From a virus: DNA of 29,846 nt. The notes beneath the pieces are model-generated. The model did not search any database. It was not told where the DNA came from and saw only the letters and a program-made list of their open reading frames with translations. Below, piece by piece: positions 3,991-6,736 of the stretch. The stretch covers positions 1-29,846 of IMG/VR virus record IMGVR_UViG_3300035182_000180; one strand, 5' to 3'. The translations under genes and the position numbers were made by a program. Within the stretch, counting starts at the first letter, position 1. Every line of letters begins with the position of its first letter.

Positions 3991-4889
3991 TTGAAGATTT
4001 TGAAGACTTGAACGGAATAAATGAAGTAGCTGACATTAGTATTGATGCTTTTGGCGGTTTAGTCATGCCTAAGAATAGCTTAGTAGCTCTTATAGACGCT
4101 GACACTATAGCGTTTACAGCCTGTTTAGCTACTGAAGTTGAATGCACTGCACTGCCAAGAGACTTTTATACTGAAGAAGAGTGGCGTATGCTTAACATAG
4201 TAGATGGAGTATACTGGGAAATCGACTTAGACTTAGCATTACAAAAGGCAGAAGAGAAGATACAGCGTATTCTTGATAAAACAGGGTGCAGTAGTGTTGA
4301 GCTGCATTTCACCGGTGGTAGAGAAAACTTTAGATACGATGTATATCCTGGGTATAAAGCTAAGCGTGTTGACTTACGTACTCCAGCAGGGTTAAATGAC
4401 TTGAAAGTAATGTTATGTGAAAAGTATAATGGCACTATTCATACTAAATGGGAAGCTGATGATGCAGTTGTGTATAACCGTAAAAAGTTTCCTGAAAAAT
4501 ATATTATGTGTGCGGTTGACAAAGACGTTTACAACTCAGTTGCTGGTAAACATTTTAACTACTATGAGTCAGGGCATTACAATATTGATATGAAGTGGGT
4601 TGAGGTTAGTGAGCATACTGCTCGAATGTGGCCTTATTTACAAACTATTACAGGCGATAAAACAGACGGCATTTCTGGCTGTGATGGCATTGGTCCTAAG
4701 AAAGTTATGAAGTTCATTAGTGAGTCAATGACTGAAGAAGAGTTGTGGGAAGGCGTATGCTCAGCATATGCTAGCAAAGGCCTTACTATGATTGAAGCAC
4801 TAATGACTATGAATGCTGTTAATATGAACTTATTAACTGAGGTAGATGGTGAGTTACAAATAGTGCTTTGGCACCCTGATCAAGTTTAA
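3987..4889 (+). CDS. FEN/T5-type 5'-3' exonuclease
   Basis: This is a structure-specific 5' nuclease that removes RNA primers and flaps and may degrade host DNA. Metal-binding acidic residues are where the family needs them: D37 and D39 (LIDADT), E156/D158/D159 (WEADDA), D178/D180 (AVDKD), and D224/D227 (TGDKTDGI). A helix-hairpin-helix (GCDGIGPKKV, 231-240) binds the downstream duplex, and YPGYKAKR (120-127) is the family's arch-region motif. It is 300 residues long, like T7 gp6 and the Pol I 5' nuclease domain. The first 30 residues are an extra acidic extension. The start overlaps the polymerase stop by four bases (ATGA), so the two are probably co-translated and work together in primer removal before the ligase seals the nick. 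Confidence 0.93.
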   Translation: MIEDFEDLNGINEVADISIDAFGGLVMPKNSLVALIDADTIAFTACLATEVECTALPRDFYTEEEWRMLNIVDGVYWEIDLDLALQKAEEKIQRILDKTGCSSVELHFTGGRENFRYDVYPGYKAKRVDLRTPAGLNDLKVMLCEKYNGTIHTKWEADDAVVYNRKKFPEKYIMCAVDKDVYNSVAGKHFNYYESGHYNIDMKWVEVSEHTARMWPYLQTITGDKTDGISGCDGIGPKKVMKFISESMTEEELWEGVCSAYASKGLTMIEALMTMNAVNMNLLTEVDGELQIVLWHPDQV

Positions 4890-4929: not shown

Positions 4930-5268
4930 ATGAGCCACGAGTTTATAAAAGAGTCACTTCATACGCGTAAACCTATGTTTTTTGCTATTGAGCCTGAGTT
5001 TACTTTAGGAATGGCAGAAGTACTAGCATTTGGCGCAGAAAAATATGGTAGAAATAACTGGAAGAAATGTAGTCAAGAGCAAATATACTTATACTGGGAT
5101 GCTCTTGAGCGACATTTAAATGCTCGTAAACGGGGTGAAGAAAATGACAGTGAGACAGGCATTAGCCATTTATCACATGCAGCTTGTAATCTAATGTTTA
5201 TTCAGTATCTCGAAGCTAACAAAGTGAATGGCAAAAATAAAACAGGAGCTAATAATGATGACCTTTAA
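4930..5268 (+). CDS. dATP/dGTP diphosphohydrolase-family protein (DUF5664/MazZ-like)
   Basis: This 112-residue all-helical protein has the signature of the family now named dATP/dGTP diphosphohydrolase, N-terminal. The pieces are FGAEKYGRNNW (34-44), a YWDALERHLNAR helix (about 56-67) and RGEENDSETGISHLSHAACN (68-87), with Glu, Asp and His residues fit for metal binding. The family includes MazZ of phages that replace adenine with 2-aminoadenine, where it removes dATP and dGTP from the pool, but most members come from phages with ordinary bases. A TATAAT box and AAGG precede the start. The next gene overlaps its end by 14 bases. The family is fairly sure; the exact substrate is not. Confidence 0.78.
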   Translation: MSHEFIKESLHTRKPMFFAIEPEFTLGMAEVLAFGAEKYGRNNWKKCSQEQIYLYWDALERHLNARKRGEENDSETGISHLSHAACNLMFIQYLEANKVNGKNKTGANNDDL

Positions 5269-5938
5269 CGAAAAAGCGCTTTACGAGGGACCACTTTATA
5301 AACTGTATGAAAAATTAGTTGCTGAAGACTTCGTTGAAGTACGTGGTAACAAAACAGTTGAGCTAATTAATGCTACTATTGAATTCGACGCCCACTCATC
5401 AGGTATTATTAACATTAAAGATATATTTAAAACTAGCGTAGACTATATTGCTAAAGAGACTGAGTGGTATTTATCACAGTCACCAAGCAATGAGTTTATT
5501 AAGCAGTATGCTCAAATTTGGAGCACTGCATGTGATAACAATGGGATGACTAATAGTAACTACGGTTTTCTAATGTTTAGCCCTCAGAATGGGTATCAGT
5601 TTGAGAATGTAGTAAAAGAACTAAAACGTGACCCACTATCTCGTAGAGCAATAGCTTACTACACAAACCCATTCATGCATTACACAGGTGGCAATGATCA
5701 TATATGCACAATGTATGTTAGTTATACTGTTAGAAATGACAAACTTCATGCTATTGTATCTATGCGTAGTAATGATATTCGTTTTGGCTTAATTGGTGCT
5801 GACCTTGAATGGCAACGCCATATGTTATGGAAAATAGCAGATAAAATTGGCTATGACGTTGGAACTATCTATTGGCATGCTGCTAGTCTTCATTTATATG
5901 AAAGACACTTTGAGCAACTTAAGAAGATTTACAAATGA
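5255..5938 (+). CDS. Thymidylate synthase-like pyrimidine C5-methyl/hydroxymethyltransferase
   Basis: The enzyme belongs to the thymidylate synthase fold, which transfers a one-carbon unit to C5 of dUMP or dCMP. Using the start at 5255, the family landmarks are RDPLSRRAIAYY (125-136, phosphate-binding Arg pair), the catalytic Cys151 in NDHICTMY, MRSNDIRFG (170-178), and SLHLYERH (211-218). Where ThyA has GLPFN, with the Asn that reads the uracil edge, this protein has GLIGAD (178-183), one residue longer and with Asp. Asp in that place is typical of dCMP hydroxymethylases, so thymidine or 5-hydroxymethylpyrimidine are both possible products. I chose 5255 because AGGAG (5244-5248) is six bases ahead; 5258 (also ATG) is equally possible, and a 5228 ATG lacks a ribosome site. 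It is shorter than E. coli ThyA (264). Confidence 0.85.
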   Translation: MMTFNEKALYEGPLYKLYEKLVAEDFVEVRGNKTVELINATIEFDAHSSGIINIKDIFKTSVDYIAKETEWYLSQSPSNEFIKQYAQIWSTACDNNGMTNSNYGFLMFSPQNGYQFENVVKELKRDPLSRRAIAYYTNPFMHYTGGNDHICTMYVSYTVRNDKLHAIVSMRSNDIRFGLIGADLEWQRHMLWKIADKIGYDVGTIYWHAASLHLYERHFEQLKKIYK

Positions 5939-5990
5939 AATTACTATTAACATAACTATTCAGTTATTTTAATTTAATATGATATTACAC

Positions 5991-6087
5991 ATTACAGAGC
6001 ACGTCTCAGAGCTGATATAAACGCTTAAAAAATTTTATACGATATATTTGTCGTATAAAATAAATAAGCGTCCTGAGAGAATTACAG
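5991..6087. repeat. Nested inverted repeats flanked by a 7-base direct repeat
   Basis: The only long noncoding gap of the left arm (5939-6149) holds three nested inverted repeats. TCTCAG (6004-6009) pairs with CTGAGA (6073-6078), ACGCTTA (6021-6027) with TAAGCGT (6065-6071), and ATTTTATACGA (6032-6042) with TCGTATAAAAT (6051-6061) around an eight-base loop. All are perfect. ATTACAG occurs on both sides as a direct repeat (5991-5997 and 6081-6087). There is no U-tract after it, so it is not a plain terminator. It could be a replication origin, an operator for the HTH gene just downstream, a structured RNA, or a small inserted element with a target-site duplication. Confidence 0.85.
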
Positions 6088-6114
6088 TTTAACAAAATTT
6101 AAACTTATATTGGG

Positions 6115-6120
6115 TATAAT
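6115..6120 (+). promoter_or_regulatory. Probable -10 box before the HTH gene
   Basis: TATAAT at 6115-6120, preceded by TGGG, sits 30 bases before the GTG start of the HTH gene. No convincing -35 is present at normal spacing. The nested palindrome ends 37 bases upstream, so a protein bound there could control this promoter. Confidence 0.5.
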
Positions 6121-6149
6121 ATAGCTGATATTAATAATTGGAGGAATAA

Positions 6150-6383
6150 GTGGAGTTACAGTTTGTTAAAGATTACTTAGATCGTCGTGTTGAAGATGGA
6201 GAACTTGGCTCTTATATTGCAGAGTCAATTGGTGTGTCTACAAGTATGGTATCCAGTTATAGGAATCATAAGTATAACCCATCTATATCAGTTGCTAAAA
6301 GAGTATATACTCTTGATGGAATTACACTTCACCCATTTAGTGAAGCATCATTAATCCTAGAGATTGAAAGAGATAACAAATGA
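6150..6383 (+). CDS. Small helix-turn-helix protein (Cro/CI-like)
   Basis: This 77-residue protein is probably a DNA-binding regulator. Residues about 19-42 (GSYIAESIGVSTSMVSSYRN) read as a helix-turn-helix of the XRE/Cro type: a helix with Ala/Glu, a G-V turn, then a recognition helix S-T-S-M-V-S-S-Y. The start is GTG, supported by GGAGG (6140-6144) five bases ahead; no ATG in frame is better. It follows a gap with nested inverted repeats and a -10 box, so autoregulation is possible. The next gene overlaps by four bases. One small HTH gene with no integrase is not evidence for lysogeny; such proteins also time early and late expression in virulent phages. Confidence 0.75.
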   Translation: MELQFVKDYLDRRVEDGELGSYIAESIGVSTSMVSSYRNHKYNPSISVAKRVYTLDGITLHPFSEASLILEIERDNK

Positions 6384-6736
6384 ATAACTTGCATACGCTA
6401 AGAGACTTAACACTTGAGTGGTCTCATAAAAATGGCATTCTTACTAATGGCAAAGTTACTACACAGGCGCTTAAATTAACGTCAGAAGTTGGTGAGTTAT
6501 GTGACAATGTAGCTAAGGGTAATGATATTAAAGATGATATTGGCGATTGCTTAGTGGTGCTAACTAATCTAGCGTCATTAGCTGGCCTTACCTTAGAGCA
6601 ATGTTGGGCTCATGCGTATAATGATATTAAAGATCGCGTTGGCTTTCTAACGCCTAGTGGCACGTTTGTTAAATCAACAGACCCAAGGTACGAACAGCTC
6701 ATGATGAAGTTTGAAATTGAGTCTAAAAATGCTTAG
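6380..6736 (+). CDS. MazG-like nucleotide pyrophosphohydrolase
   Basis: The protein cleaves nucleoside triphosphates to monophosphates and pyrophosphate, or acts on alarmone-like nucleotides, as MazG-fold enzymes do. The metal-binding pattern is ExxE at SEVGEL (E36, E39), followed by DDIGD (52-56) with D53 and D56 in the EExxD/DxxD position. WAHAYNDIKDRVG (76-88) is the typical N..K..R helix. At 118 residues it is a single-domain MazG. The start overlaps the HTH stop as ATGA. It is the second nucleotide-cleaning enzyme in this arm, with the one at 4930. Substrate unknown. Confidence 0.85.
   Translation: MNNLHTLRDLTLEWSHKNGILTNGKVTTQALKLTSEVGELCDNVAKGNDIKDDIGDCLVVLTNLASLAGLTLEQCWAHAYNDIKDRVGFLTPSGTFVKSTDPRYEQLMMKFEIESKNA

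Follow-up and report, generated by a model that had tools for sequence, protein, structure and literature searches.

A nested palindrome upstream of an HTH-MazG gene pair in uncultured phages as a probable regulatory DNA site

A nested palindrome built from perfect inverted repeats stands between the thymidylate synthase gene and the TATAAT box of a small HTH gene in the viral DNA analyzed here (IMG/VR record IMGVR_UViG_3300035182_000180, positions 1 to 29,846; this whole stretch is referred to as the window). The best explanation, to which we assign a probability of roughly 0.58, is that the palindrome is a regulatory DNA dyad (i.e., an operator) of the promoter serving the HTH and MazG genes, with the HTH protein as its likeliest binder. 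It would most likely be a control site of a fairly ordinary kind in an unstudied phage group, and it provides a group without a close cultured relative with a likely early regulatory switch.

The palindrome and its genomic setting

The plus strand of the window encodes DNA polymerase A, an exonuclease, a dATP/dGTP diphosphohydrolase-like protein, thymidylate synthase (5228-5938), MazG, and DNA ligase, and the minus strand carries structural genes, including those for the portal and the major head protein. According to the ORF list, no other gap in the early half is as large as the one that contains the palindrome (5939-6149, 211 bp), as a previous sequence-only reading of this DNA had noted. 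That reading had also described three nested perfect repeats around one centre; the repeats (11, 7, and 6 pairs) are real, and the centres of the inner and middle ones differ by 0.5 base, but the outer repeat is centred at 6041, a shift of ~5 bases that produces an asymmetric internal loop whose 5' side has 11 bases and whose 3' side has 1 base (Table 1). The ATTACAG copies reported on either side are present, although the pair is probably a product of chance, judging from the sequences compared.

Table 1. Positions of the palindrome, its component repeats, and the adjacent promoter and genes in the window
Feature	Position	Strand	Details
Nested palindrome (outer, middle, and inner inverted repeats)	6004..6078	.	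Proposed regulatory DNA dyad
Outer repeat	TCTCAG 6004-6009 / CTGAGA 6073-6078		6 pairs; centre 6041
Middle repeat	ACGCTTA 6021-6027 / TAAGCGT 6065-6071		7 pairs; centre 6046
Inner repeat	ATTTTATACGA 6032-6042 / TCGTATAAAAT 6051-6061		11 pairs; centre 6046.5
Inner dyad	6032..6061	.	8-base centre; left half TTTATACGA common to L003 and L012
Left ATTACAG	5991..5997	+	Absent from nearest relatives L003 (read) and L012 (aligned)
Right ATTACAG	6081..6087	+	Absent from nearest relatives L003 (read) and L012 (aligned)
TATAAT	6115..6120	+	Proposed -10 box of HTH promoter; ≤50 nt from HTH start in 24/27 gap loci
GGAGG	6140..6144	+	Ribosome-binding site of HTH gene, read from sequence
HTH gene	6150..6383	+	77 aa, GTG start; Cro/CI-type DNA-binding domain (profile, model, and fold matches)
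MazG-like gene	6380..6736	+	Overlaps HTH gene end; second gene of proposed operon

When folded as RNA, the palindrome reaches -26.3 kcal/mol, compared with a shuffle mean of -12.5 (z -4.6; 0 of 200 shuffles as low), and the opposite strand folds equally strongly. The best hairpin of the entire gap scores 16.8, a value reached by 0 of 25 shuffles. There is no U-tract, and a search of 5850-6450 returned 0 terminator-like sites, which upholds the previous statement that this is not a simple terminator and led to the rejection of an intrinsic terminator. Within its own 29,846-base record the palindrome is a single copy, the second match being the hairpin aligned with its own reverse complement.

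Searching for cultured phage relatives by blastn with 1.8 kb of the window gave no match. The window polymerase is at best 30.5% identical to that of a cultured phage among the matches listed (Pseudoalteromonas phage PH1), and the HTH protein matched only four cultured-phage records, all of one phage name, at a non-credible E of 0.7. A literature search on the phage group and on a palindrome beside a Cro-like/MazG pair yielded no description of the element among the papers listed. A 15.6 kb contig within a Spirochaetia MAG (L218; GTDB SABI01000031.1) encodes a helicase with 55% identity; this is probably a stray phage contig, and possibly a hint of the host.

Recurrence in related phages

Relatives were collected from viral contigs by scanning with protein queries (thymidylate synthase, HTH, MazG, exonuclease, and helicase; the best 80 loci being taken from each of the MazG and exonuclease scans), resulting in 36 distinct HTH-gene loci, including the window, after removal of duplicates. 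With L172 left out of the gap count (its contig starts 102 bases upstream), 27 loci have a gap of 108-219 bp before the HTH gene, and the other 8 have spacings of -26 to 43. The genes that adjoin the 27 gaps on the upstream side form six protein clusters without detectable mutual similarity (deaminase/diphosphohydrolase, 12; thymidylate synthase, 7; the L099 type, 3; a cluster that we take to be carbamoyltransferase-like, 2; the L006 type, 2; the L092 type, 1), which ties the gap to the HTH gene and not to the gene preceding it. Next to the element in L003 and L012, which are the nearest relatives, stands the carbamoyltransferase-like gene and not thymidylate synthase. The gap always precedes the HTH gene, but the loci were picked by that gene. 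Start codons of L010, L090, L092, L093, and L114 were corrected by hand for the gap, neighbour, and TATAAT counts, and were left uncorrected in the mismatch counts, the shuffle tests, and the count of CATATCT-type dyads.

Long palindromes recur in the gaps before the HTH gene (HTH gaps), with sequences that differ between phages. The best hairpin exceeded all 20 shuffles in 17 of the 27 HTH gaps, in 21 of 27 gaps before ssb genes, and in 22 of 120 other gaps (HTH versus other gaps, Fisher p 9e-6), leaving 10 of the 27 HTH gaps that fail to beat every shuffle. In an earlier run with 25 shuffles, which covered 32 of the 36 loci (all except L106, L113, L172, and L204), no shuffle was as good in 15 of the 27 HTH gaps; the hairpins of L093, L096, L098, and L114 were unremarkable in that run, and the hairpin of L107 was weaker than its own shuffles. 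Other strong palindromes were seen elsewhere in these genomes, namely a very strong nested one before a VRR-nuclease-like gene in L101 (8835-8985), a locus whose HTH gene lacks a gap, and several more that are long and perfect in L102, again in other gaps (~4116-4222, 5637-5843, and 6300-6380).

Plain alignment of the three nearest loci did not line up the outer arms, so that the inner dyad alone is comparable amongst them. The half-sites of the window and L003 are alike, as is the left half of L012, whose right half has two mismatches, and the remaining loci differ. A second dyad, [CT]ATATCT-N(4-6)-ATAT[GA], occurs in 11 of 27 loci, the pattern having been picked after the sequences were viewed, and an A/T run resembling TTAAAAATTTT is visible by eye on the 5' side in many loci. 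An alignment of five further loci was excluded from the counts, and column-wise covariation is not claimed. No repeat of the half-sites of the gap was found at other promoters, and 13-base words from the gap appear only sporadically elsewhere in the same locus. These words are mostly AT-rich, and the idea of a global operator in many copies was rejected on this basis.

The recurring gap is linked to a promoter-like sequence. Of the 27 gap loci, 24 have TATAAT no more than 50 nt from the HTH start (the exceptions being L070, L090, and L096), compared with 1 of 8 gapless loci (L108) and 266 of 5000 random 50-mers. On sequence grounds this box would be a working promoter; it lacks a TTGACA box and follows a TTTAA-rich stretch, an arrangement that may resemble Campylobacterota promoters. 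Since the palindrome lies upstream of the box, it would stay outside the HTH transcript. In L108, a bare TATAAT promoter occupies a 43-bp gap without a palindrome. Elsewhere in the window, a perfect 10-bp palindrome (AACGTACGTT, 923-932) abuts another TATAAT box before the gene that starts at 985.

DNA-like stems and the predicted regulator

Stems selected as RNA should tolerate G-T but not A-C mismatches, and this difference was used to compare the HTH gaps with the hairpins associated with ssb genes in the same phages. The stems of the HTH gaps (27 loci, i.e., all but L011, L091, L101, L106, L108, L111, L113, L172, and L204) contain 39 G-T and 33 A-C mismatches, where composition predicts a ratio of 1.16, and the ssb-gene hairpins (33 loci) contain 65 and 21, where the expected ratio is 0.92. 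The two sets differ both overall (39:33 versus 65:21, Fisher p 0.007) and amongst gaps beating every shuffle (11:18 versus 42:17, Fisher p 0.005), with p values that are optimistic because related loci are not independent. Inverted matches in coding sequences show 92 G-T and 86 A-C mismatches, and an earlier count over 21 loci found 3 of each. The lack of a G-T excess in the HTH-gap stems suggests symmetry kept as DNA and not as RNA; to judge from these counts, the HTH-gap palindromes appear to be maintained as DNA, whereas the hairpins before ssb appear to be maintained as RNA. When combined with a control from the same genomes, a tally of G-T and A-C mismatches offers a cheap means of separating palindromes kept as DNA from hairpins kept as RNA in unprocessed phage contigs.

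The adjacent gene encodes a predicted DNA-binding protein. The HTH_3 (Cro/CI) profile matches 20 of 24 members of the family (best E 9e-7), the protein of the window itself scoring 18.1 bits, under the curated cut-off of 23. An AlphaFold model of this protein has a pLDDT of 95.8. Foldseek returned no match to the model under E 0.001 (best 0.028), and the matches listed by VIA-align include HigA, P22 c2, N15 Cro, the 434 repressor, C.AhdI, and YdaS at middling Z values of 5-6, mostly over ~60 residues (mainly residues 3-64 of the model). The HigA and P22 c2 matches are structures with operator DNA. Sequence profile and fold therefore agree on a Cro/CI-type DNA-binding domain, and the protein models as a Cro/CI/HigA-type domain.

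The dyad-symmetric DNA lies beside the proposed promoter of a gene for a Cro/CI-type HTH protein. As an operator or an upstream activator or repressor region, the palindrome would act in cis on the HTH-MazG promoter, with at least one dimer of a DNA-binding protein sitting on the dyads, which precede the -10 box by ~40-110 bp, and tuning transcription of the two genes. The likeliest binder would be the Cro/CI-type protein made from the first gene of the operon, which, judging by the arrangement of the genes, is probably autoregulated; we infer both the binding of the HTH protein to the dyads and the direction of control. An operator for this protein was amongst the candidates of the sequence-only reading, and it has since gained a promoter-relative place kept in relatives, DNA-like stems, and a Cro/CI-type fold, while its status is that of a predicted site.

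Cro/CI operators usually consist of short sites overlapping the -10 box. The operators of P22 c2, 434, and N15 Cro resemble the present element in two respects, a small HTH regulator of matching fold class and palindromic DNA adjoining the promoter of its gene; in contrast, the dyad here is nested, 75 bp long, and well upstream of the -10 box, and no tyrosine-type integrase was found in 18 records. Proteins with this type of domain are described as often binding palindromic sites beside their own gene (PMC12204516; PMC3758141). The controllers C.AhdI and C.Esp1396I likewise combine a small Xre-type first gene with operators upstream of the regulated genes (PMC3758141), but the operon partner here is MazG and not a restriction enzyme. 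Autoregulation by Xre/HigA antitoxins (PMC12204516) shares the fold class and the use of a palindromic repeat at the promoter as a binding site (predicted in the present case), whereas no toxin was recognized beside the HTH gene, which is followed by MazG.

Competing explanations and other conserved elements

The main weakness of the operator reading, as far as the sequences allow a comparison, lies in an uneven conservation, the part of the HTH protein responsible for recognition being well conserved while the dyads vary greatly between phages. Binding by a different protein, or recognition by shape, would also fit this pattern. It is conceivable, though on balance unlikely, that the palindrome is bound by a different protein (e.g., a regulator of the host or some other protein of the phage) or works through its shape, as a cruciform, and not via the HTH protein, as the sequence drifts between phages and the pairing is kept in many of them. 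Long AT-rich dyads beside a promoter could extrude. Cruciform formation under negative supercoiling is described for some inverted repeats (PMC6060812). Against these ideas, the inner TTTATACGA is common to the nearest relatives and the CATATCT-type dyad is present in 11 of 27 loci, both of which point toward sequence recognition.

A narrower version, which we consider rather improbable, is that the palindromes are selected for shape, with a hairpin or cruciform upstream of the promoter being recognized or switched by supercoiling and the sequence being free to drift. If true, this would represent a structure-gated early promoter in lytic phages with a layout unlike that of N4, and would be of wider interest. 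The N4 hairpins are short and located at the promoter itself, and the longest ORF of the window (1106 aa) is presumably too short for a virion RNA polymerase. The hairpin promoters of the phage N4 virion RNA polymerase (PMC4496689) are similar to the element in using a DNA-level hairpin as a promoter feature, but the element here is ~75 bp long and lies upstream of the TATAAT box.

A structured RNA within a read-through transcript from upstream (e.g., a processing site, attenuator, or terminator), one of the candidates raised previously, seems improbable. The fold is strong and RNA-like ssb hairpins exist in the same phages, yet the stems of the HTH gaps have no G-T excess (39:33), there is no U-tract, the hairpin is upstream of the -10 box, and the upstream gene varies; the mismatch counts and the position disfavor this candidate. 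Searches of Rfam with five sources returned no family at gathering score (the element itself has two matches, E 2.8 and 3.7, both far under gathering), and a known RNA family was rejected accordingly.

A replication origin, also proposed from the sequence, is very unlikely. An AT-rich dyad within the replication gene block would suit an origin, but GC skew, a weak origin marker in lytic phages, keeps its sign at the element and reverses near 9.9 kb, together with gene direction; the skew is alike to the left and right in 33 loci, and 8 relatives lack a gap before the HTH gene. Least credible of all is a MITE-like insertion whose target duplication would be ATTACAG, or a site for telomere resolution or recombination, since the flanking direct repeat and the nested outline, which is similar to that of telomere-resolution sites, are set against a place conserved in 27 loci across divergent phages, a single copy in the record, nearest relatives without the ATTACAG pair, and a centre that is an 8-base loop and not a perfect palindrome. 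Additionally, the protelomerase family PF16684 and the tyrosine recombinase family PF00589 were found in 0 of 18 records (which may be fragments) under conditions where controls matched, and a protelomerase or integrase site was rejected on this basis.

Two further conserved stretches were observed near the start of the window. Positions 1522-1621, before an ssb-like gene, form a second conserved structured stretch that occupies the same place in relatives, and in several of these the ssb leader contains a long stem closed by a ATTAAGTC-like sequence, along with a hairpin that resembles CCTCGGTGTGCAGAGG, the stems being RNA-like. The leader of the gene matching 985-1521 of the window carries a conserved stretch (GGCTTGGGAAGGCC...AAACTATCTAATAAATTCG...CACTTAAAGGA) in many relatives, the window itself lacking it before its own copy of the gene. 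With five sources, including L003, L006, and L013, this stretch had no Rfam match at gathering score. It is possibly an undescribed RNA element, and occurs in L013 (~1430-1496) as well as in L003, L006, L007, L089, L092, L093, L097, L179, and L209.
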